Part shown: positions 1,570 through 49,650 of the stretch, one piece after another
Position numbering within the stretch: position 1 is the stretch's first letter
Layout: each line of letters opens with the position of its first letter
Source: Cenococcum geophilum 1.58
Lineage: Eukaryota; Ascomycota; Dothideomycetes; Gloniales; Gloniaceae
Assembly (NCBI GenBank): GCA_001692895.1
Contig: KV748222.1
Location: 278,683-342,682 of the forward strand
Reading direction: 5' to 3'
Length of the DNA: 64,000 nt
Notes under the pieces: model-generated
Told to the model about the DNA's origin: nothing
The model's database searches: none
What the model saw: the letters and a program-made list of their open reading frames with translations, nothing else
Made by a program: the position numbers and the translations under genes

Positions 1570-2345
1570 TTTTGCTACTTAGCAGAATTCCTTTATAATT
1601 CTTCTTACACCTAAAACCTTTAGCCAAGTTTTTATAATAATAATAGCATCCGGACTCTAAGTTAGATCACTTTTTAAGGTAGTTTTAATTAATAACTTAT
1701 TTAGCTATAGGCTATTATTACTATATAAAAGTATTTTTAGCCTAAGCACTCTAACGCCGCGTAATCGCAAATTCGCTCTTATACGCTCCGCCTAAGTATT
1801 TTTGCATTATTTGCATAAAGGAAGCTTAGCTTCTTAAAACTTTTTAGGAGTAAATAGGTAATAGTGCCTATAAGTTTAGTGTATAGCTATATCTAGGCTG
1901 CTATAAAGCATTATCATTCTAGCTAATAATAATAGTACCATACCATAATAATTAATGCCGTTAATATTCTATTAATATACTCGGAGGACGCAACCCAACT
2001 ATACTAGGTAGTTTAATAAATAATAAAATAAGGTAGATGTAGCTTAAAGAGTAAGTATAAATATTCTATATACCATTTAAAGGAAGCGCCTAGTAGATTC
2101 GTCCGTAGCGTAGACTAAAATATTAAAGAGGTTACGGCTAGAGCCTTTAGGGCTATAGAGAGTGCAAAAGTTAGGAACTATAATATATTTAGATTAGAAT
2201 ATTAAAGCTAATAGCTTTAGATATAAGCTTACTATCTATATCTACAGAAATGCCGGCGCTACTTATAATAATAATTTTACTTTTATTAAAAAGCATCTCT
2301 CTTAACGCTTTAATTTCCTTAACTAGCTTTATAGATTTAGCAAGG
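1570..2345 (-). pseudogene. SIR2-family (NAD-dependent deacetylase-like) relic
   Basis: Reading the minus strand downward from 2345 gives a decayed SIR2 catalytic domain. The nucleotide-binding start appears as SKIIIISSAGISV (about 2275-2237), equivalent to the family's K-I-V-V-x-x-GAGIS. After frame changes comes MVYRIFILTLQATSTLFYYL, then LRVYQQNINGIN (about 2000-1965), the counterpart of the conserved LRxYTQNID motif. Next is the zinc-ribbon region with LPLCKQCKNTQAERIRANLR (about 1815-1755), and finally a PDAIIII segment and LGVRRIIKEFC (about 1610-1575). The block order is that of fungal sirtuin-like proteins. Several stops and frame breaks make it a pseudogene, and the stops replace Gln or Trp codons as RIP does. 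Intact sirtuins remove acyl groups from lysines using NAD+. What this copy did is not knowable from the window. It lies downstream of another minus-strand frame (2346-3720) that may be its N-terminal part. Confidence 0.8.
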
Positions 2346-3720
2346 TTAATATACTTTGGCTACTTTAGCTAGGTCTAAAATGGCTTTAGATAGGGTTACC
2401 TTCTAAAACATTAGCGGCATAAAGCGTGTGATTTACTCTGTTTTAGAGAATAAAAGTATTTAAATATAGTAGAGTATCTTTAAACAAATAGGAGGAAAAG
2501 TAATAGGTTAAGCGGATAGTACAATATAGGCGTAAGCACACATACTTATACCCAATAATACCTAAATCCCGGCCCTAAAAGACTTTAGGCTCGGCTATAA
2601 GGTATACTTATCCTACTATATACGCCGGAACTTATAGGCTTAGAGTAAGGTATATTGCTTTAAACCCTATTAACTTCTAAATCCCTTAGATTTATAGGCA
2701 CTAAAAGAAACTATAGAGCTTGGATAGTATTAACTTACACCTACTATACCGGTTATAAATTAACCCTTACCCTATAGCGTAGGCAGCTAACAGTTACTAT
2801 AGACTTATAGCTTAGAATAATAAAAGAATTGTTTTAGTAAGGCGAGCATTTCTTAAAGTGGAGCAGCGCTTTAGCATCACCTTAACTATAAGCTAGGATA
2901 ATTTACTATTAGTTTAGTAGTAAGTAAGGGCTGGCGTTAGGATATAATATAGGGCTTAAGAGGTAAAAATAAGGTTATATTAGCAACCCCTTTTACAACC
3001 AAACGTATAACTAAATAATTAGCTAGACTAACTATTAAACTAGGATTAGGATATACTAATTAGGGAGGTCTTTTGGGTTAGTTTTAGGAAGTAAATATAT
3101 ATAATAGATACCGGCTAATACCTTCTAATAACTATAAATAGAAAGCTAGCTTAACTTATATTAGACTTAAAGCCATATAAATAAAATGCTAGTAAGACTG
3201 CGTAAACACCCTACTTATAAACGCTATATTAGGCGTTAGGGCTAGAGGATATCTATATAACTTAGTAACCTATAGATATAATACTATACTAATAGAAGAA
3301 GCAACCTTAAAACAAATAAAACTAAAAGTATACCACTAGTGGCGTCGCCCCTTAATAGATAGGCTTCTAAGAGTATTATCTATATACGTTAAATAGGGGC
3401 AAACGGTATCTAGCCACTCTATCCTCTAAGCATCCTTTACGTTTATAGGTATAGCGAGATTATATAATATGCCAATCTCTTATATATTATAATAGGATTT
3501 AAGGGAACCTAGACCTCGCAGACCTTAATAAACTAGTTAGATCTATATCCTTAAGTAGGGGTCTAACGGCCTACTAAGCTATCTTATAAGCAGCTAGAAT
3601 AACCTAGTATACTAAAAGCGCCTTAGTCGGATTTAATATTATAGCTTACAGAATTGCCGCACCTAGGATGGCGATTTTATTAGTTAAGATAGGGATTTAT
3701 AAATAATAGCTTTTTAATAT
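2346..3720 (-). pseudogene. Unidentified decayed coding frame upstream of the SIR2 relic
   Basis: The minus strand gives one largely continuous frame, interrupted only by TAA/TAG, for about 1.3 kb just upstream of the SIR2 relic and ending next to its start. Readable stretches include EMLALLKQFFYYSKL (about 2850) and WLDTVCPYLTYIDNTLRSLS (about 3400). I recognise no domain. It may be the N-terminal portion of the same protein or a separate gene. TGA is rare here for compositional reasons, so an open-looking frame is weak evidence. Confidence 0.3.
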
Positions 3721-3972
3721 AGCACGTCTTAACCTAATGGCTTTTCTGGACCCTAGCTTAATTTAATAGTTATATAAGCCACTAAAAGCGAGATATAAGA
3801 CAGCTTCTACAGCTAAATAGCCCTAAGGCTTATATTCTATAACTCTCCCTAGTATAAATTATATAATAGCTAATAATCGCTCTTATAGGCACTATTATAT
3901 ACGGCCGCCATTAGCCCCTTACTAGGTTTCTATATATAGCGTAATCCTTTAACTAAATCCCTTAGTATAATA

Positions 3973-3996
3973 TTTTAATATCCTAGGATATTAAAA
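3973..3996. repeat. 24-bp perfect palindrome shared with 42747-42770
   Basis: TTTTAATATCCTAGGATATTAAAA is a perfect palindrome. It is followed by ggcctataggttacatatata, and nearly the same about 45-bp block occurs in opposite orientation at 42725-42770. Nothing else is clearly shared between the two sites, so it could be the end of a dispersed element or a coincidence of low complexity. Confidence 0.5.
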
Positions 3997-4229
3997 GGCC
4001 TATAGGTTACATATATATATATACCCTTAATTAAATTTTTTTCTCGCCACTCCTACTATTATTATATATTTATATAATAGCAACTAATCTTTATTTCCTA
4101 CTATTTGCCTTTAATATATCCTACTATAATAAGATTTAATAATTTACCGGCCTCGGTAAGTGTAGAGGTAATAGTTATCTAGGAAAAGCCCCTTAATTAA
4201 TAGGTAGAAATAGAGAACAACTATTATAG

Positions 4230-7200
4230 CTAGCGCGCCTTTTATATATAGTTTAGGAGGGGAGCTAATTATAAATAGAGGCAGATTGAGATACTAGTAA
4301 GTAGTAAATATAAACTTATACTAAAGCTTTTAGAAAAATTCGTCGCTAAGATTAGCTTAGATATAATAACTAAAATTTAGGTTTAACTAAAGGTATATAA
4401 AGGCCCTTTACTAAAAACGGATTATATTTTAGAAATCTCACTATAAACTAGCCTAGTTCCGTTAAATTATTCGCAATTTATATAAAAAGCCCCTAATACT
4501 GCTTAATTCTTAACTACTACTATCCTAAAATATGGCTATATAAATAACGGTAGGGATAATATTTAGGATAAAAGCGTAAAGCATATAAGACGCAAGACTA
4601 TATTATATAAAGATCTTTCCTATAAACCTTTAAAGTCTACTAAGGTTAAAACCGGGGAAGTAAAAGATCTAGGTAAGGTTAATCTATAGCAAACTAAAAG
4701 CAGTCTTAACTATATAGATTACTAAGTTTTTCCAGGGCCTTATAATACGTCGGTTAATACGGAAAACTATTAAGTAGCTCTTAGGGATTACAATACTGGT
4801 AGTAAAGTTTAATAAAGTGCTACTAAGTCTCCGGAGCTAGGTAAAGGTATATAGGGTAGTAAGGCCAAGCTATATATAAGTAAAGATATTTAGATCGCTA
4901 TAGAAGATTCTACTAGAGCAGAAATAGCGATAGATCGCTAAGAGGTAGGTAGAATATTTATAAAGGAAGTAACCCCAGAAGCTAAAAACCCTAGAGTATT
5001 AAATAAAGGCGGAGATTAAACTAATCTGGTGGGAACGTATACTACACAACCTTAAGAACCTCCCATTAAAACAGCAGCGCTAGTTACACCAGCGTAATAG
5101 ATAGATAAAAATGTTTTTATCTCTTCTAAAACAAAAGAGATCTATAGAAAAAAGATATTAATATTAATTAAGAGTATTTCTTTATCGCCTAGCCTTTCTA
5201 TAGCTTTAAATTTAACAAAGGTCACTATAATAAGGGACATAATCGTTAAATCAGCCTAGGTTATTTATAGGTTTAGCAAGTATTAATACGGGGTTTCGAA
5301 AACGGTTTATATAAGGATTCTATAAACAATGCAAGTTAGTTATAAGGAGCCTTTAAACCCGCCAAACTTAGGTAAGTAGTTAGACGGCTCTATATAGATA
5401 TAGGTACTAAAAGCGGAATGGGTCCAAAACTAAAAGATTATAATATTTAATATATTGGAGTATATTAGAGCTTAGGAGTAGTATAATACTTAGGTTAAAC
5501 TAACCTAACCTATAATCTATACTAAAAAGAACAAGCCGGTAGATTGTAGAGGTATAGTAATTTATATACTAAATAAAATATAAGGTCTCCTAATAATAAA
5601 TAATCAATATAGGAAATGCATTAAAAATGTGGGGAAAATAACTCTTAAAGAAAAGAGGAATAAATCTTGCGACTTAGCAGACGATAGTATTATAGAGAAA
5701 AATACTTAGCTAATAAGGAGGCGAATTAATATATAACTTAGTAGAGGGAATAAGCTAAGTATAAAGCTTATTAAAGAGCTTAGCTTAGGTATACTCTTCA
5801 GTCTAAAGATTTAGTAAGTAGTGTAACCTTAAACCCTCACTAGCTACTAGCACTCGCTTTAAATAGGAAGTATACTAAAATAAAGACGAAATAACTTAAT
5901 AGTCTTATTAAAGATACTAAAGCGAACTTAAACTATATACAGCTGCTCTAAATCCTAGGTTAATAGTTAGAGGTATTAATAAATAAAGGAAAGCCTAACC
6001 TTAATACTCTATTTAGTTTACTAAGAGTAAAGACTCTAGTTTTGGAAGAAGAGTATAAGGAGCTAACTACTACCTTTACTTTAGAAGCGGTAAGTTAGTA
6101 ATATAGAAATAGCCTATATATTAACTAAGTAATTTCTAACATAGGGATCGACACTAAAGGGATCTTTAGGTGCCGCTGTTAATTATTTAATTAAGAAAGT
6201 TAGCACTAAAGTTATAGGTAAGCAAAAGCTTAAGAAAGATAATAGTATTACAATTAATAGTGGAATAGAGTTGCCCTATAATATACTTAATAGGCTTTAC
6301 CAAGATAAATAGTTTAACAGTTAGCTCTTAATAGCTAGAATAGTAATATTGGACAAACTATATTTTATAAGATACGGTTATAGTATTCTACTAAAATAGT
6401 TTAAGCTATTTAGCAGAAGTGGTAAAATAAGACGCGTTATAAAGCCTCTTGCGGGTTAGAGAAAAAAATTAAAGCGTTCCGTATAGAGGCCTAAGGATAG
6501 TAAGGGGGAGAAATACTGCTAATTTATTTCTGCCTACTAAACTATAATAGTAACCACTTTACATTACTAGAGATAAACGAGTAAGAGGAAAAAATCTATT
6601 ACTATAACTTAATAGTAAGTAAAAGTGTTATTAATAGTATAGAGAGGTTAAGTCGAGTTAGAAAATTAGTATAGGTAAGTTAGCTTTAGTATTTAAAACC
6701 CCCTAAAGCTAACGCTAAGGTAGGAAGAGTTTGGCTATTTAGAATTTAAATATATTAAGGCGGTAAGTACTAAAACGCTAGACGAAATTCTTATAAAGCT
6801 AATATCGACTTTAGAACAGCCTACCCCTTAATAAAAAGATATATTAAGCTACGGTCCAATAGTTATAAGGAACTCAGCGTATTAAATAAACAGTTTTTAA
6901 GTTAATAATTAGCATAATAAGTTAGATCTAGAGCGCTTAAGAATAGATATTATTAAAGCCTTTAAGACATATATATTAAACAACGCTCTATAGTAAAAGA
7001 GAGCGGGAAACTTAGCTAAGTTAAATAGCATAAACGTCGTACTAAAGGATAATTTGATAAAAGCTATTATAAATGTATATAGGAGATCGAAACGGCTAAA
7101 GGCGTAATAGCTGTAGGAGGGGGTTATAAAGAATGCTAAGTATTAGTATATTGGGAATACGTTAGAAGCTCTAAAGCTTAGTATAATGTATAAACCATTT
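4230..7200 (+). pseudogene. Unidentified long decayed coding region
   Basis: A plus-strand frame broken almost only by TAA/TAG can be followed with a few frame changes for nearly 3 kb. Readable parts are polar and include Lys/Glu/Asn-rich stretches, for example VFPGPYNTSVNTENY (about 4730), SATKSPELGKGI (about 4820) and EVGRIFIKEVTPEAKNPRVL (about 4945). A later part (about 6910-7180) reads DLERLRIDIIKAFKTYILNN and NVVLKDNLIKAIINVYRRSK. I recognise no family. It is divergently arranged with the SIR2 relic. Given the compositional shortage of TGA, coding origin is plausible but unproven. Confidence 0.35.
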
Positions 7201-7529
7201 ATAAACACTAAAAATCCTCTTTTTAAGCTTTTTACTAGCTTGGTTTTAATTTACAGTACCTCTAATTTAAATTCCCTAAATATATTAAAGTCTATAGCTC
7301 TATTTTAAATAGAGTAGGTAGACTATTAGTAGAATAAATAAGCCAAATAGTATAATTATCCCAAATTACTGCGTTAAAGCACTCTTTAATATATAAGTTA
7401 CGCCCTTCCCTATTATATAAATAAAATCCTTAGCTTATATAGAACCTAACTTCCTCTATAACTATAAGATTAGTAGCCGTTCTAATATCTCTCTAGTTAC
7501 TATTTTTCTAAAGCATAATTAATATACTC

Positions 7530-8260
7530 TTAATATTCTAGAATAATATTAGCTTAACATTATTATATAATAAGAGGCTTTAATACCTTCTCTAGGCTTA
7601 GTATAATTAAACTTAATTATATAAGCAATTTTAATATAAATACTTCTGCTTCCTCTCCAATTCTACTATCCCTCTTTAAACTACGCCGTTTATCTTCCTC
7701 AGCCCATATAAACCGCTTTAATTAGTATTATTTAGAATCCCACTCTTATCTAAAATTGTAAGAATCCCGCTCCTAGCTATCTTCCCTTATAGATTAAGCC
7801 AGCTCTAGTTAGTATTATTTAGAATTATAAGAATCTCGCTCTCTTCTAAAATTATAAGAATCTTGCTTTTGTTTATCTTCCCTTATAAGCAACAGAGACC
7901 AAACTCGCTTTCTTTAGCCTTAGAGGGCCATATCTCTTATCTTAGTATCCTAATCTAAGTTACCTAGCGCCGTTTGGCCTTAGAGTGCAATATCTACCAT
8001 CTTGGTATTCTAATCTAAGTTATCTAAAGCTAGTCGGTCTTAAAGTATTTTATCTAGTATATTAGCATTCTAAGCTAAATTTAAAGATATTACCTTGTTA
8101 TCCAAATCTTAAGATAATATTTTGCTCTCCAAATCTAGAGATATTATATCACTATCTTTACTTAGCGACGCTATTTTATAGTCTAAGTTTGCGTATATAG
8201 GACCTAGCCGCTTATTATCTCTAGGGCCTAATTTATAGTACTAGAAGCTAATATCAGTAC
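7530..8260 (-). pseudogene. Decayed coiled-coil-like coding region with a 60-bp (20-residue) repeat
   Basis: At 7919-8080 a 60-bp unit is tandemly repeated about 2.7 times (7919-7978, 7979-8038, then a partial copy). In the minus strand it encodes a 20-residue repeat with Leu/Asp/Lys heptad-like spacing, for example around NTKMVDIAL. Reading on to about 7530 gives charged helix-like sequence (IREDKQKQDSYNFRRERDSY). Units of 60 bp keep frame, which favours a coding origin. No named family was recognised. It ends about 150 bp before the solo LTR at 8408. Confidence 0.4.
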
Positions 8261-8407
8261 TTTTAAAAAAAGCAAAATAAACAGATTTTTAAATAAAAAG
8301 GGAGCTAATAGACTTTCCTTTACCAATTATTAGCTTATTTAGGAGATTAAAGAATAAATAGTGCCGGTTATAATTATAAGCTTTCGCCTAATACCTACCG
8401 TACTAAC

Positions 8408-8651
8408 TGTCACGGGACTTACACGTTCTCACGTCTCTGCGCGCTTTAACGTTCTTAACCCTTGCTCACGTTCGTCCCGAGACACCTACGCACATTCCCC
8501 TATAACCCCTATTTATACCCGTACCTAACCTGTTCTATTTCTGTATCTAAATGTCTTTGTATTAACCACGCATAGTTACGCGTACGTAGCCTTCTTTAAT
8601 TACTACCCTGTTTAGTATATTGTATTCCAGCTCATGCCCACTTCCGTGACA
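8408..8651. mobile_element. Solo LTR, 244 bp, with 5-bp target duplication
   Basis: The segment begins TGTCACGGG and ends TCCGTGACA, an 8-bp perfect inverted end TGTCACGG. It is flanked on both sides by CTAAC (8403-8407 and 8652-8656). TG...CA ends plus a 5-bp duplication are what a Gypsy/Copia-type LTR leaves after LTR-LTR recombination. It is visibly richer in GC and CpA/TpG than its surroundings, so it probably arrived after most local RIP or was too short to be mutated. No internal region or partner LTR of this family is present in the window. Confidence 0.8.
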
Positions 8652-8769
8652 CTAACACTCTATAGCTTCGCCTTAACCATTAACTATTATAAGTAGTCTT
8701 AAATTAGGGGGTGATATTTTTTTAGCGGATTAATATATTCTAATTATCTTACGTATAAATCTTTCAAAA

Positions 8770-10190
8770 TCGTCTTAATTATACTTAAAAAAAATCTGGT
8801 TTTTAACTATATAGTAAAGCTTCCCGTGCTTTCTTATTATTAGGGCTTAAAAGCCTTAGCCTATAGATCTTATCAGATTTAAAGCCTAATTTATAGGCTA
8901 AATTGCCTAATTAATACTATCTCTTAGGGTCCGGTGTTTAAGGCGCTAGGGCGGCCGCTCCATTTTCTTTTAAGAGGCACTCTCTTATTAATTTAAACAC
9001 ATATCTTATAATACTTAAATATATTACCTAAAAACCAATATTAATCCGCTGAGTTATATCTCTAGGATATTCCCTAAAATTAAATTTAGAAATTTATAGA
9101 ATTAGCATATCTTCCCTCTAATTTACTCTAAAATAGGTATACTTAGCGGCCTAACTAAGAGTGCCTTTAAAACGTTTATTAGAAGTCCTAAATAGCTATT
9201 ATATAATCTTAACGTAAGGACTTAGATAGTTAAAGTTGCGCTAAAAACTATATAGGGAAGGAATTAGATATTTAAATTCGCTTAGCTTCTTTAAGACATC
9301 CTATCGCTTAAACTAATCTTTAACTAATTAAAAGATCCGATATTTACACATTAGCCGCTCTAAAAAGCTAAAGTCTTCCTAAGAAACTCCTAGGGCTCTT
9401 AGTTAAAGATAATATACGTCTATCTAATCTAATCTAGCCATTAAATCTTTATTTCTGTTTAAAATTTTCCTCTAAGTAGTTTGTATATACTTAAGATAGT
9501 ATATAACTTACTTATTAAAGGTTAAGAGATATAAAAAAGGGCTAAGTAATACTCACCTCGTCACTTTTTATAGCTATAATCTTATACTATTTACCGATTT
9601 TAAGGTCTTCTAGCAAGGTAGAAATAAATTAAAGATAATTAAGTACCGCACTAAATTGCTTATGTTTAATTACTCTCTTTAGTATATCTTATTTACACTT
9701 ACTAAGGCAAGCCCACTACTCTACTTTTATAAACTTGTTCTCGGATTTATAATCTTAAATTTTAAGATATATTTCTCCGTTAGAAAAGTTTTTAAAATTA
9801 AAATATTCTTTAATTAAAGTCCTCCTTGCTTCTTAACTAAGATCTAGACAGATAGTTAGTAACTATAAAGAATAATACTAATATAGGACAATTACTATTA
9901 GAATAGAGATTAACTATCTACTATTTATCTATAGGTTTAAGGCTCCTTAGCTCTTTTATAGCCTAGATACAGTATTTTCTATATAAACATTTAAGATAGA
10001 AGTTAGAAGGGAATTTTAGCTCTAGTAGAACTTCTTTAGGATTATTAATAAGTTTATTAAGGGTAATCCCTAATTACGCGATTACATTCTAAAGGTTATA
10101 CGTATTAATAACTACAAGTACCTAATTTTTAGCTTCTAACTAATAGCATCCTTTACGAAGTATTATAAGGCAGTATTGCTAGGGTGTATG
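8770..10190 (-). pseudogene. DUF3723-family relic (Starship-associated accessory gene)
   Basis: The minus strand carries an almost complete, collinear run of DUF3723 motifs. From the N-terminal side: ALYYFVKDAI (about 10175-10145), SILIVIVLYQYYSL (about 9910), RRTLIKEYFNFKNFSNGEI (about 9835-9778), LMARLD (about 9450), QLRALGVS and FSFLERLMCKYRIF (about 9400-9330), LFRTSNKRFKGTLS (about 9190-9150), FREYPRDITQRINIGF (about 9080-9035), and a C-terminal LGNLAYKLGFKSDKIYRL (about 8920-8860). In-frame stops replace Gln or Trp at expected family positions, typical of RIP. The N-terminus is cut near 10190, where a 145-bp GC-normal patch and then Gypsy A begin. DUF3723 proteins have no established biochemical role. 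They recur as cargo in Starship giant transposons and in repeat-rich regions of ascomycetes. Family assignment rests on remembered motifs. Confidence 0.83.
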
Positions 10191-10335
10191 ATAGGGAGTA
10201 GGTAAGCCGAGCATGAGTTACATAGGGAGTCGATGGAAGAGGACGATATAGTAATGAGGGTAGGCAATAGCCTAAGTACAGAGAGACAAACCGATAAGGG
10301 AAAGGGCTGCAAGCCCGAGGAGCTTATAAGGAGGT
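10191..10335. other. GC-normal junction segment between the DUF3723 relic and Gypsy A
   Basis: About 145 bp with ordinary CpA/TpG content (for example gtaagccgagcatgag and gcaagcccgaggagc) separates two RIP-decayed sequences, each truncated at this point. No ORF, inverted ends or recognisable motif was found. It marks a breakpoint or filler DNA. Confidence 0.5.
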
Positions 10336-13306
10336 GCCAAGCCTAGCGGATATTAAGCTTTATAAAGATCTTAGCTCTACTTATTTGGGCCAAAGTCTTA
10401 TTAAGTAAAGGTAGTAGGTAGCGGTCTTTAAGGGTTAAATTATTAAGCTTATGGTAGTTAATACAGAAATAAAGTCCTCTATTTAGCTTTTTAGTAAAGA
10501 GAATAGGTAAGTTAAAAGGGGCTTAACTAGGCTCAATAAAGCCCTTATCCAGGTTATCAATAAGATACTACTTTATGGCCTATAATTCGGCAGTAGATTG
10601 CTATCAGAGGGGGCTATAGCTAAGGGTAACCACCTTATCCGGCTCAATTTTAATCTTATAGTCGTACGGTCGGTAAGGCGGGAGTATATTAGACGCTACT
10701 TTAGAGAAGGTGTCTTTAAATTTCTAGTATTAACGGGGCAGTTTCTGTTCTACTAGCTCCTCGTCTATAAGCTCGCCTTTCTCTTAAACTAGGGCTTCTT
10801 TCTCTTTAATTATCTAATTAATTTCGTATAAGCTAGTTATAAAGGCAATAGTATTAGGCTAAACTAGGTTTTAGTAGAATTCTATAGCGCTAATGTAGCA
10901 GATATTAACTGGCGGGAGGTCTATAGGTTTCTTTATAGATATTTGTCGGGCCGTATTTTGCGGTATAGGGTTTATAGTCTTCCTTAGCTTACATTCCATT
11001 TTCCACAAGTTATCCTTCTGGTCTATTAGTTTAGTATATCGTCCAATATCCCTAGCCTTTCTTTATAGCTGCGTAGGGCCTAAGTTCTCCATTAGGGACT
11101 TAGCTAGGCTACTACCGACTTCCTAAGTCTCTAGTGCGGGTAGTGTAACATAAGTAGTCTGGGGGCGGCGTAGTATACGGATCTGTTGCGGATTAAGCTA
11201 TACATCCTTCTTAAAAGCCTAGTCCCTACGCGTCGCATCAGCCTAGTAAACAGTGTTTATCTACGGCCGTATAAGGTTTTCCATTATAATACTAATCTCT
11301 TTTATAAAGGAAGGCGTTAGGGGCATAGTTTCGGGCCAAATAAGCTGCCTATTTTATATATTAAGCTATAAGCCTAAATAGGCTAGCCATTTTCTCCCTA
11401 AAATCATATCATAGCTTCCAAGGTCCGTAATAAGGAAGGGGATATTATACTACCTTCGTCTATTAATACGGAGGTAGATCTATAAGATAATAGTAATAGG
11501 TAGTCCTATCTATCCGTTATAACCGCGAATAGGGACTGGTTTAGGCAGTTCTTTAAGGGGTGCATTTAAAAAGTCAGCCAGTTTTATAACGCACTTTATA
11601 TTAATTAAGGTAAAAGCATTTACTCCTAAGTTAGCTAAAGCAGAGGTTAAAACTTAATATCTATTACGAAATAAAGTATAAGGGATAGTATAGCTTCTTC
11701 TACTAACTAGCCAACCCAGATTAATATGTAATATATCAATCCCTTTTAACCCTAGAGAGGAGTCTTTCTCTAGAGTTCCTCTTTTTCCGGCTCCGTACTA
11801 TCCTCCTAAATTAACAGAACCTCATTTATCTTTGCCTTTATTAGGCAGTTCCTTATAGGGTGGCCTATTTAACCGTATAAGAAGCAAGCTCCTTAATCAC
11901 TAAGGGCCTATATATAGGGGTCGCTGTATATAGGCCGGGTATATACTAGGCCCGTAGTAGGGATAGCTACGCGGCTAGCTGCTGGGTTAACTATAGGAGT
12001 TGCTAATTATACCGGGGCACTATAGGCCATACTTATAGTACTTACGGCCTAGTTTATAAGGTTTTTAGTTTTTAGCTAATTAGCGCGTGCCTTAATTTAA
12101 TAGAGGCCTTAGTTAATAGCTAGGCAATAGTCCGTAAGTTCCTTTAACGTCTATGCCGTAGTATAAACTAGTAATACGGCCCGCTATAGGTCTAGGGTAA
12201 GCTTATTAAAGAGGTCTAGTAGTAGGTCTTCCTAGGGGATCTAGGCCTATTTAGCCAGGTATAGAAAGCGGGTTTAGACGGCTAAAAAGGTCTCCATTAT
12301 TTTTATGTTTAGGCTTTTATAGCCAAGGCAGGCGTTCTATACTTTAAAAGGGTCTTTATAAATAGAAGATAAGTGTTTAATCATTTCTTCTTTAGAGATA
12401 AAGGGGTTTGCTAAGTCTTTAGTATATTGCGGGCGTAAATACATCTAGGCGTCTCCGCCAGTACAGCCAAAAACGTAAGCTATTCTAGCTCAGGCGTTAG
12501 GGAAGTGGTCTACATTAACTTCAAGCTTATCCCGTAATTAAAGCTTCCAATTATCAAATATAGGGTTAGTTCCGTCTATAAGTAGCAGGAAATCCACGAC
12601 CTTTGCCAACCGCCTCAGTGCTGCATAAACCTTAGTAGGTCCACTAAGGCGCTAAGATAAGGCCTAAAGGACTATAGCAAGTCTTTAGTTATCTAATAAT
12701 AACTCATTATTAGATACAGGGGTATCTCTGGCTTTAAGCAGCTCTTACAGTTGTTTAATTTCGGCATTAGCAGCCGTAAGCTCCGCCTAGGGGGTTAAAA
12801 CGTTAATTGTTTCTTCGTCTAAAGTATTTAAGGGTCCTACAGCTGCTTTACCTGCTGCTGTAGTTCGTGGCATAGTAGTAGGGGTATTAGGTAATTCCGG
12901 GTAATTTCTTCAGGGGTTCTAGTCTATGTGTATCTTATAGGTTCTTTCCTTAGAGTTCTATCCTTTTCTTTTAGGTCCTGTCCTTATAGTCCTATTAATA
13001 TCCTTAGGGTCCTGTTCTGTGTTCTTATAGATATATTTAAGTTCCTTCTCAGGAAGAAAGAGTAGAGTGAGCTTTAGATAATATTAGCGACTTAATTAAT
13101 CAAGATATAAGCACGGCAAAAGGGTCGCGCAAGCCTATACGATTGGATTGTCCATAAACGAGAATCTAAAGCTAGAGAAAAGGAAAGGAAAGGACAAGTA
13201 GCAACCCGAGGAGTTATATACAATCCCTAGTCACGTAAGAGTCACGTAAGCCCTGCGTCTACCATAACGTCTACCATAGCTGCCGCTTTCTGCCAGTGCC
13301 GTAACA
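10336..13306 (-). mobile_element. Gypsy-type LTR retrotransposon fragment (family A): 5' LTR, gag, protease and start of RT
   Basis: A minus-strand Ty3/Gypsy fossil, broken in many places. The 5' LTR has its outer end at 13306 (minus strand TGTTACGGCACTGG) and extends to roughly 13050. Gag starts around 12873 (MPRTTAAG). A zinc-knuckle region lies near 11900-11850, protease-like sequence follows, and RT begins around 10760 with NLDKGFIEPSQAPF (about 10550-10510). The element stops near 10336, early in RT, so the rest of pol and the 3' LTR are missing. A second copy of the part equivalent to 10946-11715 sits at 51889-52653, and a partial LTR copy in the opposite orientation at 18423-18655. Base changes are RIP-like, so it is old. 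Confidence 0.85.
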
Positions 13307-13309: not shown

Positions 13310-13740
13310 TTAGTATTAGATTTAGACTAGTATAAAGGGAGTTACTTAGTTATAACTAGTATAAAAAATAGACTGGTATATTTTTAGTGTTAGATTAAAC
13401 TAGTATAAAGAGTTTACTAGTAAAAAGCATAGATTAGTAATACGTTATTAAAAGGATAAAGACTAGTACTATAAACCTACTAATAAAAAAAGGATACTAG
13501 TATATAAGACTAGTAGTTTCGTACCAGTCTAAAAATTATACCGTTTTATATACCGTTTACACCTATATACTAATATATTCTATACACCAATCTATATTAT
13601 ATACTGGTTTAATAACTTTTAAAGATAGCAATAGAGCTATAAATGATTCTTCTTATAAATAGTATACTAATTTCCCATCTCGCCTATAAAACACCCTCCT
13701 ACTTAACTAGAAGTCAGTCTAAAACAATATTAAGCGCTAT
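13310..13740. other. AT-rich spacer with a cluster of ACTAGT motifs
   Basis: No gene was found. Between about 13325 and 13525 the hexamer-like motif (a)ctagta recurs about eight times (gactagtataaag, aactagtataaa, tactagtaaaaa, gactagtacta and others) at irregular spacing. This looks like an eroded short tandem repeat next to the Gypsy A LTR. Confidence 0.4.
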
Positions 13741-13741
13741 T

Positions 13742-14970: not shown

Positions 14971-15089
14971 AAGTGGCAATATCGACCGGGTGGTAATGGC
15001 GAACTATTGTCGTAAGCATTGTCGTTAGCCTTTTACCACCTACCTAGTATATATAGTAAGGCTCTAGAGCCTCTTGAAATAAGATAAAA

Positions 15090-15560
15090 TCTTCCTTTTT
15101 TTAATCTATATTAGATTGATAAAGTATAGGTTATAGGACTATTAGCAGCAGCAAACTATAAAGGCATTTAGGTTATTATTAATAGAGTAATAAACTGGGA
15201 GAAACGAAGCGGCGCAACGTTTAAAGGTAAAAAGACTATATTAGTGCACTTTATGAGAAACGCGGAGCAGACTAATACTACCCTATTTATAATTAAAGGA
15301 AAAACAGTTATATTAGGGTATATAGTAGTTATAGATGCGGAGCTTTAGTATAAGTAATATATTAAAGCAGCTACTAAGGGCCTTATCGTAGTTATAGCAC
15401 TAAAGAGGCTCTAAATAGTATCCCCTTTAATTGTAAGATAGCTGTTTAGGGCAATAGTAGTGCTAATAGTAGACTACGCCTTAAATATTTGGATATACGC
15501 TTGCGGGGTTCCGCTATAGCCGTATTAAACTGGGTATAAAGAATTAGAGCGCTTCTTTTA
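15090..15560 (+). mobile_element. LINE reverse-transcriptase C-terminal fragment
   Basis: The plus strand reads a piece of non-LTR RT downstream of the catalytic motif: NRVINWEKRSGATFKGKKT, then TILVHFMRNAEQTNTT (about 15180-15290), a spacer, YIKAATKGLIVVIALKRL (about 15358-15412) and VDYALNI (about 15471-15491). The order matches Tad1-like fungal LINEs. It is flanked by the two convergent F-box-like relics and has no 5' or 3' element ends, so it is a captured fragment. The next 300 bp (15560-15870) keep a readable plus frame with basic sequence (KKRVVSYKVIRTSVVSYISS) of unknown origin. Confidence 0.75.
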
Positions 15561-15949
15561 CCTATAGGTTTATATAAAAAGTAAGCTTAAAGCTAAAATT
15601 AATTCCTAGCCTAATTTTAGCTATAAGCTTTTATAGTGTAGGAATTAAATAAGCGACTTTAATCTTAAATATAGCTTTAAAGACTCTATATATATACAAA
15701 AAGGGTAGTAAAAAAAATAGCGACGATTACCTTAGTAGATAGCGCTTATAATTAGCAATAATATACGAGTTAAGAAACGGGTAGTAAGTTATAAAGTAAT
15801 ACGAACCTCGGTAGTTAGTTATATTAGCTCTACTAAAAATATTTTATATTACAGTTTTACTTCTTACTTACTCTCTGTTTATATTTTAGTTACTTAATTA
15901 TTTATATTACGCAGCTAAAGAGAAAGACTATTCTAGCGATTTAAGAATA

Positions 15950-20945: not shown

Positions 20946-20949
20946 CTAA

Positions 20950-29400: not shown

Positions 29401-29405
29401 GTATA

Positions 29406-34619: not shown

Positions 34620-34639
34620 CAAACCTCAAACAAATGCCA

Positions 34640-37467: not shown

Positions 37468-37472
37468 ATTAA

Positions 37473-40030: not shown

Positions 40031-40329
40031 TAGGCGCTATAATTTTCAATTAATATAGCTAAGCTATACGCCTAGGCTATATTACTTATAAACTTCGCTT
40101 TGTCAGTAATAAGAGACCTAAAAAGCCGGTAAAGAGTAATCTAGAACCAGTTTTAGAACCTTTAAATTTAAAAGGATGCCTTTAGCTATATAAGCCTAAG
40201 AGCCAGAAATAGTATTTAGAGAGTTCAAAAACAGAGCCTCTACTACTTTAAGTCAATCTTCTTCTTTAAAAGGCCCCGTAAACACCAACTAAGCTTAAAC
40301 ACGTTATATCTTTATCTATTTAGACTCTC

Positions 40330-41190
40330 TTAAACTATATAGCCTCTAACTATATTATAAATAATGTGTTTACCTCTACTCTCCTTACTAGTAAAACTCT
40401 TTAAGCATATCCTTAATTACTTACCTATTTAAGATATCCATAATATAATATATAGCTCTTAACAACTCTATTTTATAGGCCTAAATACTTTTTAGCAGAA
40501 GTATTATTATAAAGTAAAAGTTAATATATCGCTAAAAGGCTTAGTAGAGTTTAAAGAATTCCTAAAGCGCGAGCCCTATTATTATATTAAAGAAATCACT
40601 CTTAATATAACCTTACTAGACTAGCATGGACGTTGGCTATTATTAAGCCCTCTTACCTCTCTCCTTATTAAAAGCTTAAGGGTTATAAAGAATTTCACTA
40701 TAATTATATATTATAATACTCCTTACTACTATAGATATAGAGACGAATATAAACTCGCGATTATACTATTAATAATAGCAAAAGCTTTATAAAATAGACC
40801 CCTTAAACTCTAACTAAAAAATATAAGGTTTAAAGACCTTCGCAATCTAAATAAATACTTATTAATCCTTAAGCACGTAAAACTCCTAAATCTTACAGTT
40901 ATACTTAGTAGATTTTCACAGCTGTAGGTAGATAGTCCTTTTTGGTTTATATATTACTTATTAAACCTTAAAACTCTATTATTATTTATTAAAGTATTTA
41001 AACCGGGTAATCGGAGTGCTATTATAGGCATATTAGAAAATATTAGTTCTAAGTAGCTATAAGAGTTAACTATATCTGGGTGCACGATAGGTTATTAAGG
41101 TCTTAGAACTGCTCTATAACCATTTAAAGGTTTACTTAAGGCTTTAACTTTAATAAACGTAAAACTTTATAACCTTAGCGAGTTTATAAA
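40330..41190 (+). pseudogene. F-box-like protein relic 3
   Basis: The plus strand opens with KLFKHILNYLPI followed by DIHNII (about 40387-40446), an F-box-like pattern like those at 13748 and 16960. It continues with FIGLNTF and KVKVNISLKGLVEFKEFLKR (about 40510-40570). A leucine-rich region follows, with LKNIRFKDLRNLNKYLLILK (about 40820-40880), HVKLLNLTVIL and ELTISGCTIGY (about 41070). It ends where a palindromic element is inserted at 41193. Stops are of the RIP type. Confidence 0.55.
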
Positions 41191-41192
41191 TA

Positions 41193-41584
41193 ACGTGTTC
41201 CACCACCGAGCGCATCACTTCAAAATACACCAAAAAGCCTAAATTTTAATCTTAAATATCTCAACAACAACTTAATAATATTTTCTAAAAATTTAAATAT
41301 NAGCTCTTATATACCTATTCTANTNCCTATTATAATATTAGAGCGTGCAGTCTAGTAGTTATTGAGATATTTCGAAAAGTCTTTGTTTTTAGGCCCTAAA
41401 CCCTATATATCTTAACAACCACTAGACTGCACGCTCTAATATTATAATAGGNANTAGAATAGGTATATAAGAGCTNATATTTAAATTTTTAGAAAATATT
41501 ATTAAGTTGTTGTTGAGATATTTAAGATTAAAATTTAGGCTTTTTGGTGTATTTTGAAGTGATGCGCTCGGTGGTGGAACACGT
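41193..41584. mobile_element. Near-perfect palindromic foldback element, 392 bp, TA target
   Basis: The ends ACGTGTTCCACCACCGAGCG and CGCTCGGTGGTGGAACACGT are perfect inverted repeats, flanked by TA at 41191-41192 and 41585-41586. The arms continue inward for about 185 bp each with almost no mismatch, centred at 41388.5, leaving a tiny diverged centre. Ambiguous bases are mirror-placed: 41301/41476, 41323/41454 and 41325/41452 all sum to 82777, as do the element ends. The TA target and ACGT start match the element at 19311-19728, and both carry a ttaacaaccact box, so they belong to one structural class. There is no coding content. Confidence 0.88.
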
Positions 41585-41639
41585 TATATAATTCTTTATC
41601 TTAATATTAAGTATATCCGCCTTTAGAGTATTATAATAT

Positions 41640-42700
41640 ATAGTAAATATATTAGGTTTTTTAAATATTATAAAAGTAATATAGGCCTTTTAGATAAGCT
41701 AGTTACTAATCTTAAGTATAGGCTCTAATATTAACTTAAATTTGCTACTTCGTTACTTTAATATTGCTACTCTATTTAGCTAAGGTTGTAATATAGCCGG
41801 GCTAGGACGGATTTTAAAATTTCTAACCTATATTAGGCGCTTCCGCCTATATAAATATATATAGAGGGCAATTACTATAATAATAAATATAAAAATAGCT
41901 ACTGTAATACCTGCAACTCCGCCGCTACCTAAAGACTTATAGTTAGAGACTTTTCGTTAACTATTAAGAATCTTATTACTACTTTTTTATCAGTATATAT
42001 ATCTCTACTATAGGGTTTAACTTACCTTATTACTTAAAACATAGTTTTTAATTTAAATCCCTTTAAAAGGTTAGAGGGAGACCCTATACTTATATATATA
42101 ATTACTAACTCTTAATTACTAAAAATAAAGAGGCCCTAGAAAAGGATCTTATGCTCTACTATATTTAGAAAATAATATTATTTAAGAAAGTTTATAATAT
42201 AAATCTACCTATAGCAGCCCTCTTATCTACTATTAAAAGGATATACAGCATAAACAATTCTATCTCTATTACACGCCTATTAAGGCCTATACGCCCTATA
42301 AAACCGTCCTACTATAGTTATCTAAAACTCTATCTTACTCGCGTCTCTTATTAGTTTTTTAATTTAGGCTATAAATTAGAACTAAGTAGCTCTTATATTC
42401 CGATTAAAGGACCTCCGCTACTATATTATAATAATATTAACTATAAAACTAGGGTCTCAATTAGTTAATCCTTAAATCTCTTAGATAATAGGAGTATAAT
42501 ATTTAGATCATTAGATTCTAGGAAATATATATTTAAGCCTAGCTACTAGAATACAAAACTATTAAAAGCTAAATAGGGCCTAGTTTAGGGTTTTATAGGG
42601 GGTCCCTCTCCCCTATATAAATAGCCTAGATCCTTATCAATATAATCCTAATATAATTTCTAACAGAAATACTATTTAGGTTTAGTTAATGCTAAATAAG
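41640..42700 (-). pseudogene. Decayed single-pass membrane-protein gene
   Basis: A minus-strand frame reads from about 42400 through FYRAYRP, NRDRIVYAVYPFNS (about 42270-42230) and SIGSPSNLL (about 42085). It then gives SLGSGGVAGITVAIFIFIII (about 41940-41880) followed by VIALYIYLYRRKR (about 41880-41840). A Gly/Ser stretch, about 20 hydrophobic residues and a basic stop-transfer sequence is the typical C-terminal arrangement of single-pass fungal cell-surface proteins. The extracellular family was not identified. Stops replace Gln/Trp. Confidence 0.45.
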
Positions 42701-42746
42701 CTAGGGTTTACTTTAAATATTAGCACATATATATAACCTATAGGCC

Positions 42747-42770
42747 TTTTAACATCCTAGGATATTAAAA
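42747..42770. repeat. Second copy of the TTTTAATATCCTAGGATATTAAAA palindrome (one change)
   Basis: Reads ttttaacatcctaggatatt aaaa, preceded by ataacctataggcc. This is the inverted counterpart of the block at 3973-4015. Confidence 0.5.
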
Positions 42771-43239
42771 TGTTTAGAAAAGTGACTTTTTAATTCTTTA
42801 AAGCCGTCCGACGTGATATATATAACTAGTTTTATTAATAAATATAAAAGGAGAAGAAAACTATTAATCTAGACCCCAAGATAGGACGCGCTATTTTTAG
42901 TGTATAAAGTATGCCTATATAACTCTAGAAACGGTTCCTATAAGGGTGTTAAAACCTTACCTAAATTGATTCCTATATAATTTCAGCATATAGAACGGTC
43001 TCTTCCTTTAAAAAATTATTTTTATAGAACTTTGGCTATAACTAAAACGTGGAATAAATAAGATCTTTAGCGTAGAGGTTATTAAAAAATACATTCTCCC
43101 GATATACGCTTAACTACTTATATATCCTTTTTATCTAACATTCTCGTAGGATAAGATAACAGCTGCCAATTATAAAAAGAGTAGAGTAAATTCTTTAATA
43201 TAAGTGTCCAAGCATTATTATAAAGCTTTAAATATTACT

Positions 43240-43990
43240 AAGTTAATTAATAACAGTATTGCTAAAACTATCAGCACTAACAGCTCTATTATCGCCCTTT
43301 TAAATAATACTATAAACACCTCTAAGTTTTCTTATAGAAATATTATATTAGTTAAAGGTTAAATAGGAAAAAGTATAATCTTAATTATATTAAAGAATAA
43401 TAAGCTAAAAGACGGTATTGCTTAAGTAGATTATATTATTTGTAATAATCTTTGGGTTATAAGTAGTAATAGCATTTAGATATATCTATGTCTGGATATT
43501 AAACCGGTAGGTATTTCTATCGATTTAATAATAATGCTAACTATATTTAGGCTAAGTGTATTACTATTTGTCCTATTTAGAGCAGTATTACTAATTTACT
43601 ATTTAATAACTTTCTTATTCCCTACTTTTAGGGGGCCTACCAGCCAGTATACTAAGGTAATAACTTTATAGCTTATAACGGCATAAAGCAAGTTAAATTT
43701 AAGGTTATTAAGGTAGACCCTTTAGAATTTGGCATTATTACACAGGATATAGTTATTTATAATAGTAAGCCAATCCGACGCAAAAGTAGCCTATTAACTT
43801 TATTTACGTATAAGCCAATAAAGGTCCCGTTTAGTCTTAGCCTAAAGCTTTAGCTTAACAATAAATATAAAAATATAATTTAGTAGAAAGAATGCCTTTA
43901 TAGTATAGGTAAGTGCATAGGCGTATATAAGCTAGATACTTTAAACTAGAGTTAGAAACTCTTTATTATATAGATTAGGCCATAATATAG
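43240..43990 (+). pseudogene. CDC48/p97-like N-terminal domain relic
   Basis: The plus strand matches the N domain of the AAA ATPase CDC48/p97 in order. NSSIIALLNNTINTSKF (about 43285) equals the NxSVV...L start. YRNIILVKG is the counterpart of RGDTVLLKG. ILKNNKLKDGIA precedes VDYIICNNLWV, the counterpart of NRVVRNNLRV. YLCLDIKP follows. After a break the second subdomain reads GAYQPVY (family EAYRPV), IAYNGIKQVKFKVIKVDP and LEFGIITQDIVIYNSKPIRR (about 43725-43784), matching VEFKVVETDP.YCIV..DTVI...EPI.R. Beyond about 43990 the match fades: I see no Walker A or other AAA motif. CDC48 unfolds ubiquitinated substrates, and its N domain binds cofactors. This copy is dead. Confidence 0.72.
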
Positions 43991-44259
43991 ACTTCCGTAT
44001 TATCCATATAACCTAATATTAAATTAATAAAGAAACTTAATAGACGAGTATTTTAGTATATAAAGTTCGCTGCTATACTAGCATTATAACTAGGAGTTAA
44101 GCAGGAGATAGATATAACATATTAGTACTCTCTATGTCCTATTATCTTTTCTAAATAAAAGTTCTGTGAGCTTATACTTTTAGTCTAATATATCCTAGCC
44201 CGTTTTACTAAGATTTATTTTTTAGTTAATAACGCTCTACCTAACGTAAAGTTGAAATA

Positions 44260-45300
44260 TAAGTCGGACGCCTCTTTCTGGCACGGCGATGCCTATATAC
44301 CCTAGGCGTACCCTCTATATAAATAGAGCTGCCTATTTAACCCATCACGAATTAGTTTTAGCTAGCTATAAATTATATCCTTAACACCAGCGATAAATAT
44401 TTTATATATACCAGTTGGTATCCGAACAGTAAGTTAATAATTTCTTCCGTTATAGTTATATCTATCTAATTTCCATCGTTAGCTAGCCGCTCTATTATCC
44501 CTTAAGCCTATATACTATATCTTATCCTTTATATAACTAATAGCGACTTATCTTATATAAGCTGGAAGAGTATCCATAGGTAATGCTTAAAGTGTCTTCC
44601 AGCTTTAATATATTTAAAAAGTGCAATAACTTAGTAAGCTTTAGTAAAGGCTTTATTATCGGTTAGCGGAGGCGTTAAAGGCGTATCTACGTCTATAACG
44701 CTTAAAGGTGGTATAATATAATATTTTTTTAGAGAATTCTATAACGTAGATATAGCCATATATTATATAATAAGTTAGGCCGTATTACGAAGTTAGACTA
44801 TAATTATCGCGAGCTTAGTCCGCGTTAAGATTTCCTATACGCTTTAGTTAACTTAATAATAGGCAACCTTAGGCTACGGCAATATAATCTATATAAGAAT
44901 ACTAGCGTTTGCCAAGAATATAATAACTTTAGTCTTAGGCGAGTTAAGGCAAAAGCTAGTTTCGTAAGTAACTATATATTTAAAGCATACCTAGGCTTTA
45001 TAGCTTCTACTTATTAGTACTTAGTTACTATTATAAATTCTACGCACCAGAAATAGAGCATTAGTCGTCTACGGTAAGGGGTTGGCTAAAGTAGCATAGT
45101 AAGTAATTTTGAGTTAACTAGTTACTATTTTTAGAAGGGCTTTATTCCAGCTCCCTTTCTCTATAAAATGCGCTTCTATAGTTAGTATAGTAGAAAGCTA
45201 ATAGATTCTAGCTAAAGCTAATTTTACCACTAGCTATTCTGGAATACTTAAATTTCGGGGGGCCTATATATAAATAAAATGAAAAATTCAATCCCAGAAT
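44260..45300 (-). pseudogene. Unidentified decayed coding frame
   Basis: The minus strand gives about 1 kb of one frame broken almost only by TAA/TAG, for example IEAHFIEKGSWNKALLKIVT (about 45185-45125), NSPKTKVIIFLANASILI and YYIIPPLSVIDVDTPLTPPL (about 44725-44665). No family was recognised, and compositional shortage of TGA means this could be spurious. Confidence 0.28.
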
Positions 45301-45559
45301 AGCTTTACCTTAAAAAGTAAACCTTAAGCGTGCTAAGTGGAGGGCTTAATATTAACAACAGTTATCTAAATATATTTATAAGGTTATAGAACTTTTAACT
45401 AGCAGACTTAAGTTACTAATTAAGTCTTAAAGCTAGTAAATTGGGGATTTTAATTAAACTATTATAAGTCCATCTAATTATAGGTCCTAATAATCCTTAT
45501 AATTAGACATTTCTACCTAAGAAGCGGCATTTATTTAAAAATATATATATATATAAGTA

Positions 45560-47050
45560 AGTATTTAATTAGAGCGTATATAAAACTATACCGTAATGTA
45601 GGTATATTATTTAAAGCTATTCCTACTGGTATATCTATATATTGCACAGATTATTTAGAGAAGAATACTTCTTAGTAAAAAGACGTAAGCTTTTTAAGGA
45701 AAATTAGAAGTAGAGAATAGCAAATTAACCGTTAAGCTTAATTATTAGCGGGATTAAGCAATTAAAGAGTCTAAATTAAAAGGACACGTAGAGGAGGAAG
45801 TAAATAAACTAAAACCTATACTCTAGGCAGCCTAAGCTAATATTTAATAAATATAACAGATAATAAACGATTAGGCGCAGATTATAGATTATTTTAGAAA
45901 ATTTGCAATTAGCTCTTACTAGGCTATATAGGAAGTAAAGTCTAAGTTAGAGTTTACACCCCTACCTAACTAGCAAGGCCTAGGGTTAAATCGATTTCTT
46001 ATACTAAATTAAGTATAAGTTAGCGTAGTAACAGCTTAGCAAGTACATAGAATAAGTCTTAAATTTATTTATATCTTAAGTGGCTATATTGCTGCGTTAT
46101 ATTAGGTTTTTTTTACGTAGCGGTTTTTATTAGCCGCTTTTTATAGAAACCTCAATTAAAATAGCCGATAGAGCGTTATATACTAAGCCGCGCAACGGAC
46201 TCTTATAAAAGTCTTTAAGCTCTTGTTAGTTCTCTTAATAATACTAAAGGCTATACTTTCTAAAGTCGGATTTAGAAGTTAGGAGAAGTTTTAATAACGG
46301 CCGCGATAGTGGAATTATTAGTAGGATGCTTAAAGATAGGATAGGCTAGAATATAGGCTCCTAGACCTAGTTAGAAAAAACGTTAGAGGTAGCTATAGTA
46401 ACCAGATATACTATGACTATTATTATAATTTTTAATAATATTAATAGGTGGAGTTTACCTGCCTAATTTGCACTTAAGATAGCTACGGCCGCCGGGTATA
46501 CTAAAGTTAAGGGGGCACTAAGGACAGTGCTATTTTTAAAATAGGTATTAAATAACAAGTTAATATATATGTTTTATATATCTAATCTTTTATCTAAAAT
46601 TTACGAGCTATATAAGGTAGCTCTTATATTGTAAATATATAGATAGAATATTATATAAACCAAAACTATAAGAATAGAATATATAAAAATCGGTCTTTAT
46701 TAGTCTAATAATATTAAATCCACAATTTCTAAGGTTAAATACTCTTTTAGTATAATATAACTGTATAAACTAATAGGATAGTTAAGCATAAAGCCTAGAG
46801 GCTACTATCTTAAACGTAGATCAATCTTATCCTTATTAATCGCATCTTTATTTCCTAAAATCTTAGTTTTAAAGGCTATATTTAATTTACAGAGGTCTAA
46901 GCTAGGAAGACTCTAAGAACTCTTATTACTTATAACGCTTATACTATAAGGTGGTATAGAGATAGTTTTAAACGCTAGAGTAGGGTATAGACCTACGCTT
47001 TTGCTCCGCAGGTTATTAAATTAGGAAGGGTGCCACTTAATAAAATGTAT
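45560..47050 (+). pseudogene. Possible decayed coding region with a coiled-coil-like start
   Basis: A plus-strand frame begins with KLYRNVGILFKAIPTGISIY (about 45580) and enters a charged helical region with ESKLKGHVEEEVNKLKPIL (about 45770-45826), then IINDQ-like and VKSKLEFTPLPN (about 45930-45970). Readability on both strands from 46300 to 47050 is similar, so the 3' part is uncertain. No domain was named. Confidence 0.28.
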
Positions 47051-47389
47051 AAAATCTATTCCTACCTACTTTTTTTTATCCAGGGATTCTAACCTCCGTT
47101 TACTTAGGCCTTAACTTATATTATTCCTCTTATATTTTTAAACTATCTTAATCTCGTCTTTAAGGTCGCCTTCTACCTTATCCTCTTTAAGATAATCTCT
47201 ATTCCCGCGACGGTTTAAAACATACCGCCAAAAACTATAAAAATCGCTTAGATAATAGCGATATAACGCTACACTGTTTAAGGTCTTACACCGGTTATCC
47301 GGGTAGGGAAAGGGCTAGGTACGGTTATTAATATAGGTCTCCATATAATCCTATAACTTAATACTCCTTATCTACTACCGCATTCTTAA

Positions 47390-49650
47390 TAATACTAAAA
47401 GTCCAGTATTATAGAGGCAGAAGGTATAGTACCCAGCATAAATAAGGGTATGTTAATATATTATAATCTTACACCTAAACAACTTTATAGATATAAGATA
47501 ATTTCAGTAGTATATCTCCTATTTTTACTTGTTACTAAACTATTTAAAGCATAGAAAGTAATAAATTAGCTTATATTCCTTTCGGCTAAGCCTTATAGCA
47601 AATTCCCTATAGCGGCAACCGTAAATATAACTGCTTTATTACGGTTTTTAAAGACTATACTAATTAGTATTATAGTAGAGCTTTAGGTAGTAGATAGTGG
47701 TAACCTTTATATATACTTACCGCAGCCTTTAATCGGACACTTTTTATTAATTAGCTCTTCTCCTAGTCGGTAAATAACTTATAGGTCTCGCTTATACAAA
47801 AAAAGAAGATCTTTAACTACCCTTAGCTTTTCTTTCTTTAATAATACTTTTATAGATTTCCACATTTTAGTAATACGGGCACGCTCTAGTATAACTCTAA
47901 AGATATCCCTAATAATATTAGTCTTAGTAGGATCTTTTAGAAGCTTTTTCCCTTAAGATAAAATCTTTTAATCCCTTCTCCTATATATTTAGTCCTATTA
48001 GTACTAATAACAAGCTTCTTCCCTAATCTATTTATAACAAAGTCTAAGCTCCGATTTTATATTAGAGATTTTGCTCTTATCAGCACCGCTTAGTTTTAGC
48101 TATTAGGCTTTTCTCTCTAGCCCTATAAGTTCCGGATTATACGAAATAAATTCTTTTATTTTAGCTAGCAGAATAATTAAAAGACCCCGTTCTTAGTACC
48201 TCCTAGCGCCCTAAAGATATTTAATATGCCGAGTTTTAGCTAGCTTATCCAAATATGCTACTATTACATTTACTACTATAACATTGGCGATATAAGCCTT
48301 GCTATAAATTTTAGGGTCTCTCTAATTTAAAAGCTATAACTATTTAGCCTTGGTTACCATTTCTAAAGAAATAGTTAGTAAATTAAATATAGGTAATTAG
48401 CGCGAATGTAATAAAAGAAAGGATCTAACTAGATATTAACTTACTGTTAACTTTATTTGCTAAACCTTAATATATTAAGTAAATAGTAATACGCCTAAAG
48501 AACCCTAAGTTCTCTAAGGCTAGTCGCAATAGTTTATAAAAGACCATATTATTAAATAGCGCGTCCTTAGAAATGCATCTATTTATAAAGATTATCCATA
48601 TTACCGGTTTCTCTAAGGCCTTTTCTTTTTATTAAAAAACTACCTTATCCTTACTAGAGATAATCTCTTACTCCTATAAATTTACTAGAGAATTATACCT
48701 AAAGAGCATATTGTCTATAAAAGCGAGTACTAAAAGGAATAGCGCGGCGGTAAATTTAAGGACTTTATTCTCTATAAATGGAATTCCAAACCTAAGTGGC
48801 CCTATTATTAGCTTACTTACTAAAATAAGTAGAGTAGCTAGGAAGTATAGTACTTTATAAATTTCGAATCTTAATTGTTTTTTATAAAACGCTAATTAAG
48901 TTAATAATTTATAACCTAGCCATCCGGAACGCGCTAAAGAAAAATTTTAATATCCTAAAAAGTTAGATATAGCTCAAAATTAATACTAGATATTACCTAC
49001 TTTATAGCGTATACCTCTATTTTTCTATAATAGCTTAGGAATAAAAGCGCTAATTCTTGCTCCAGAAAAATAGAAACTTAAAATAGCGAACGTAAGCTAA
49101 ATTCTATAGCGTTTATAGATAAATTTAGGATTATCTATAGCCTATATAGAGTTAAGGAGGTCGATAAGATTCTGCTTTATAAAATTATGTTTTAGCCTTT
49201 TTATATACTTAATAGTGCCATTTTTAATAAGAGTGTTATAGATCTACTAGTAGTATTATAAGTTAGCAACATTATCTCGTAAATACTATAAGAGACACTT
49301 ATATAAAAAAACATTACTCCTATCCTATATATTAAATTTTAGTATTAGTAAGCCGCTTAAAGCCACTAAAAAATCTTTCCGTAAAATTTAACACTAATAA
49401 TTGGATAGGGTTAAGAGAAATTTATCCTTTTAAGGTTTTAATATAGAAGTGAATAAAATCTTTAACGGTTGCTAGGTTAGGAGCTTACGCTCCTTTAGTA
49501 AGGCACTCCCCCTTATTATTACTATCCGCTACTATCCATCTATTTTCCCAAAGTTAGTATAGTTCTTAAATATATTTTATAGTCTACCTACTTCTTATAT
49601 AGGATTAAAGCCCAGTCTTAAAGTTCTTTGGTTACTTTAACGTATTTATT
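47390..49650 (-). pseudogene. DUF3435 tyrosine recombinase relic (Starship captain-like)
   Basis: The minus strand is a nearly full-length, collinear DUF3435 fossil. N-terminal: LWENRWIVADSNNKGE (about 49550) and APNLATVKDFIHFYIKTLKG (about 49480-49420). Catalytic core: FYFSGARISAFIP (about 49065-49025), where SGAR is the conserved arginine box of tyrosine recombinases, then RYKVG and FLLVLAFIDNMLFRYNSL (about 48745-48690). The RRG-type box survives as RRITIYLIYQGLANKVNS (about 48505-48450). C-terminal: DPKIYSKAYIANVIVVNVIV (about 48325-48265), SYNPELIGLERKA (about 48145) and a Cys-bearing EELINKKCPIKGC (about 47755-47715). Stops fall at Gln/Trp positions (RIP), and the His/Tyr boxes are degraded. 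In Starships the captain is the first gene at the 5' end and reads into the element, which here would extend toward lower coordinates. Orphan DUF3435 genes are also common in repeats. Confidence 0.85.

Follow-up and report, generated by a model that had tools for sequence, protein, structure and literature searches.

Four copies of a probable Starship-like giant transposon, ruined by repeat-induced point mutation, meet one target motif in Cenococcum geophilum

Starships are giant transposons, about 20-700 kb long, that have short direct repeats and carry a captain gene at their 5' end (PMC12153272); a second account gives 15-700 kb and a DUF3435 captain, and degraded elements are known (PMC12134995). 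A. fumigatus Starships had direct repeats in 19/20 cases and inverted repeats in 18/20, the Starship Tardis has a 10-bp target motif that is over-represented in its genome, and multi-copy Starships can be degraded by repeat-induced point mutation (RIP) (PMC12153272). DUF3723 is among the Starship accessory genes, and ToxTA, a TA transposon, is a passenger inside the Starship Sanctuary (PMC12506042); statements from these three papers reflect excerpts of their texts. Here we analyze a 64,000-nucleotide stretch of C. geophilum 1.58 (the window; positions 278683-342682 of contig KV748222.1, called C47 below), which in our judgment very probably contains a RIP-ruined Starship-like giant transposon, present in this genome in four copies. 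An earlier note on this DNA had proposed such a RIP-killed element, with an inward-facing captain at its end and a DUF3723 gene, and our results support it.

Like the Starships in the excerpt of PMC12153272, Tardis for example, the element combines an inward captain-type gene near one end with large size, a DUF3723 accessory gene and mobility between loci. As in Tardis, it is found at a short specific target motif common in the genome, although the motif itself differs. Unlike described Starships, the captain in the window is a weak relic, the far end and the direct and inverted repeats were not found here, several copies occur in one genome with all examined ones RIP-mutated, and four bases at the junction vary.

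We sought copies in the fungus's own genome, an assembly of 177 Mb in 162 contigs that include C47, C14, C29 and C4. The DNA of 47.3-50.1 kb was found again on C14, C29 and C4 with 89-91% identity. C14 is colinear with the window at about 90% in the blocks 607-10163, 15821-18971, 34616-35450 and 37468-50186, and the colinearity extends a further 22.5 kb to the left of the window, as far as C47:256223. A short repeat breaks the leftmost block at about 8405-8651; the second is in part common to C4 as well, the third is common to all three other contigs, and element sequence in 37468-50175 is shared with all three in blocks. Because C14 carries this colinear copy, we read the window block as a single element, where the earlier note had left several superimposed ones open; the left limit that it set at 1570 does not hold, as shared element sequence starts left of the window, at least 22.5 kb beyond. 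The blocks shared with C14 sum to about 33 kb, and nested insertions bring the gross span on C47 to 72.6 kb. The shared size of at least about 33 kb falls within the 15-700 kb Starship range. A Crypton, which is a small element with a tyrosine recombinase and no large cargo, was ruled out by this much shared sequence together with a further gene.

The captain-side end of the element (50160-50175, plus strand) is fixed to the base at 50175|50176. All four copies end in CTTT and four variable bases (AAGA in the window), followed by the motif CACCTAGGTA. Past CACCTAGGTA, the C14 and C29 flanks are unrelated; those of the window and C4 are alike and contain a 20-bp array. This flank (50176-51010, plus strand, the right half of the target) belongs to a dispersed minisatellite repeat broken by the element, and 29 of the 65 match rows listed for it begin at window 50175-50180, in a search of the best 40 candidates from whose listed matches C4's own element-side copy is absent. 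All 12 uninterrupted members examined among these 29 show CCCCTATATA and then YACCTARGTAGC, the right half of the empty site; the element itself stands at four loci. The earlier note had suggested a look for short terminal direct repeats near 49.7-50.1 kb; the end and its adjoining motif were located, and a repeat pair was not found. Tandem arrays of 20, 12 and 41 bp at 59139-60671, on the opposite strand, resemble the target repeat; they are high in G+C and less RIP-mutated, and lie in the second copy of the long terminal repeat (LTR) element.

The window and C4 copies lie in different members of the repeat. Over about 86 bases their flanks agree to 83.7%, each is 80.2-90.7% alike to the twelve uninterrupted members, and the C4 flank has a private 4-bp insertion. 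Since the two flanks are no closer to each other than to the uninterrupted members, the simplest reading is that the element inserted separately, at the same base, into two repeat members. An RNA gene as target was rejected, Rfam giving no match at E 0.1 at the four insertion loci. A literature search without most subscription journals found no paper linking a Starship tyrosine recombinase with a minisatellite or with ACCTAGGT.

The four junction bases read AAGA, GAGA, CATC and TAGG among the copies and match neither the target (TATA) nor the element. Their differences between sites include several transversions, unlike the rest of the copies, where only 5-8 occur per about 2054 sites. These transversions and the mismatch to TATA lead us to suppose that the bases were brought along from a previous site, as judged from the one end seen. 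Tn916-type conjugative transposons have coupling sequences at the junction, and the likeness lies in a short variable junction sequence matching neither the target nor conserved parts of the element. Those elements are bacterial; here one end is seen, and carry-over is what we infer.

Divergence between the copies consists almost wholly of transitions, with 158-195 transitions against 5-8 transversions in the six copy pairs over 2053-2055 aligned sites (window 48045-50100), and most of it is, to judge by these substitutions, RIP-like. So few transversions point to copies that arose within a short time of one another. The largest context classes of copy differences are C before A and G after T, other contexts also being common; the classic RIP context is enriched and not exclusive. 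The composite RIP index lies between 0.68 and 1.75 in every 1-kb bin of the window except 30001-34000. Both RIP and the gene families fit a host in the Pezizomycotina.

The gene nearest the end is a relic on the minus strand (47302-49650), probably a DUF3435 captain, as weak profile matches in three of the four copies suggest. It stops about 0.5 kb short of the 50175 end and, with shared sequence to its left, is the first gene of the element and faces inward, in keeping with the earlier picture of a left-facing captain with its cargo to the left. We translated the relics with stops either as X or as residues. With stops as X, the captain region matched no Pfam family. With stops as residues, the window copy matched DUF3435 at E 0.0013 (profile 213-328, at 48360-47968), with a shorter piece at E 0.015; the C14 copy matched at E 0.0035 and 0.0011 (profile 213-334) and, over the preceding profile part 97-216, at E 0.0056 (about 48769-48430 in the window); and the C4 copy matched at E 0.0023 (profile 213-302). 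The matches are colinear, profile 97-216 preceding 213-334 next to the element end on the minus strand, and this order and position favour the captain reading. Place and strand agree with the near full-length relic that had been described at 47390-49650, and the Pfam matches are sub-threshold, with none in C29. The window captain is not among the matches listed in a genome-wide DUF3435 search, which gave at least 165 matches from the best 100 of 346 candidates. Most of these have internal stops; a DUF3435 gene on C49 (752543-753905) is nearly open.

A DUF3723 relic on the minus strand (8767-10148) falls within the block common to the window and C14. It is split over three frames, with Pfam matches at E 5.4e-41, 9e-15 and 1.3e-14, was found again in a separate six-frame scan, and confirms a call made earlier at 8770-10190. 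Our six-frame Pfam scans (E 0.1) covered 601-10300, 13311-21519, 29720-34525 and 37471-47270, and RIP lowers the sensitivity of Pfam on these relics. Of 34526-35500 and 47001-50000, the minus strand was covered. SIR2, F-box and CDC48-N cargo genes had also been proposed, and none of them matched in six frames of the scanned stretches at E 0.1.

Several observations weigh against a Starship-like element. All DUF3435 matches fall below the curated cut-off of 25.8 bits, the C29 copy has no DUF3435 match with stops as residues, and the matching copies are homologous to each other and therefore not independent. A single match at E of about 0.001 proves little, because an unrelated 668-amino-acid open reading frame (ORF) reached E 0.0011 with DUF6463, also below cut-off. 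The CpA/TpG context accounts for about 26% of C-to-T differences and, by counting mode, 32% to 48% of G-to-A differences. C29 and C4 share the right part alone among the matches listed, which define their extents, C4 reaching to about window 15251. At the far end, shared sequence stops at C47:256223 and C14:504836; in C47 an LTR element follows about 73 bp further on, and in C14 a high-copy repeat follows after about 200 bp. Comparison of C14:478001-519600 with C47:216683-278682 showed repeats only past this limit, some inverted, and proved no terminus. A search of the left side for ACCTAGGT and the left half of the target repeat found no direct-repeat partner, and no inverted copy of the right terminus scored above shuffled sequences, with the left end not located. 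The surroundings of the LTR element at C47:245246-256150 likewise held no terminus. CACCTAGGT at C14:491668 was set aside as a left repeat, nothing nearby being common with C47.

We considered how else the copies could have arisen. Segmental duplication of repeat-rich DNA, without transposition, would explain why the window and C4 have a common flank family past the end; it is highly improbable in view of the C14 and C29 flanks, which are unrelated from the same base, and of the window and C4 flanks, whose likeness does not exceed that among random members of the repeat family. The block could instead be two elements side by side by chance, the captain-side part (about 15-50 kb) forming one and the DUF3723 part, together with what lies to the left of the window, the other. 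The left third is found in C14 and the window only, among the matches listed, with C29 and C4 stopping further right; yet C14 and the window agree in the order and orientation of the two parts, which are similar in identity and have no common break between them, and we hold such a composite to be unlikely. A large site-specific transposon of another class could resemble DUF3435 by chance, given E-values of 0.001-0.015 below cut-off beside a DUF6463 match of equal size that looks like chance. No close DUF3435 relative emerged in the genome either: with eight other DUF3435 readings of the same genome as queries, tblastn nowhere bettered E 0.05 and had no convincing match at the captain. An hhalign comparison with a small in-genome profile gave E 0.089 in the expected frame and place, the profile being unreliable with its C4 row misoriented. 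We nevertheless think another class quite improbable, as two adjacent profile parts occur in the right order and strand in a gene at the captain position, and DUF3723 lies within the element.

The Starship-like element was itself invaded by other transposons. One is a kinase transposon at 18971-34615 (plus strand; about 2.5 kb net, left end truncated), which is broken in turn at 19311-19728, 21519-29400 and 29727-34520. Its protein kinase relic (20439-20831, plus strand; Pkinase E 3.2e-11) is the sole domain that Pfam found in 18301-21519, and no transposase was found in the unit; the kinase counted earlier as cargo is thus real and belongs to a nested TA transposon. C14 lacks the unit at window 18971|34616 and carries one at the position corresponding to window 40089, a site that is empty in the window. 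The C14 unit (C14:566483-564183) is internally shortened and has 13-bp perfect inverted ends with TA on both sides; the window unit is without its left end. Both junctions of the first kinase-unit insertion are common to the window and C4, and at least the right one to C29, and this lineage therefore probably moved after gaining the unit. Like ToxTA in the excerpted account of Sanctuary (PMC12506042), the kinase unit, and the kinase unit only, looks like a non-autonomous TA-duplicating transposon riding in a Starship; it differs from ToxTA in its kinase relic, its many genome places, its RIP mutations and the failure to find a transposase. Copies at about 88-90% occur in many places (C2, C39, C11, C18, C36, C26, C1, C43, C61 and others), and those of C2, C39 and C43 have flanks that agree mutually on both sides. 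A 2.1-kb stretch at 4899-6995 has 72-73% matches on C36, C43, C11, C61, C18, C28 and C39, in six of these seven (not C28) roughly 16-25 kb from a kinase unit and in inverted relative orientation; these relatives and kinase units may form a second multi-copy giant element.

Other insertions are later than the kinase unit, among them an LTR element at 21519-29400 (the earlier note's Gypsy C) with terminal direct repeats of about 0.4 kb, and a 4.8-kb un-RIPped transposon at 29727-34520 with inverted ends and a TA duplication. The inverted ends of the latter are like those of the kinase unit. It contains the 668-amino-acid ORF (31340-33346, minus strand), which has no convincing Pfam relative (DUF6463 at E 0.0011-0.0013, below cut-off) and no solved relative at E 1; the DUF6463 match and unrelated Pfam matches at E 0.012-0.076, all below cut-off, were judged chance. 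Further later insertions are a repeat with at least 34 long matches at 90-92% (10339-13304), a repeat with 177-bp terminal direct repeats that are 92% alike (35446-37467), and the right end (1-609) of an insertion of about 9.6 kb that starts left of the window, with an 8-bp overlap at its ends. Foldback insertions at 41187-41590 and 19322-19700, with arms 98% and 93% complementary, are unmatched at those places in the other copies.

A plausible history follows. A DUF3435-type recombinase encoded beside the captain end would have cut and joined DNA next to CACCTAGGTA, perhaps bringing along the four junction bases as a short crossover segment from the previous site, and would have transported at least about 33 kb of sequence, counted net. 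From there the element would have spread to several sites, RIP would have mutated the duplicated copies, and other transposons would afterwards have filled the wreck. Only tentatively do we propose a Starship family with a 10-bp target, CACCTAGGTA, in a minisatellite repeat, with a short crossover segment that may differ from the target leaving AAGA/GAGA, CATC and TAGG at the captain junction, and with the kinase TA transposon ferried around the genome before RIP ruined the copies.

Starships are usually found by strain comparison and through intact captains; here, in a RIP-saturated region, a single assembly gave the copy number, one base-exact end, the target motif and the sequence of events. 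On this evidence, searches based on captains may overlook dead Starships in repeat-rich genomes. Should the four-base junction difference hold in additional copies, it would bear on the way in which captains join DNA.

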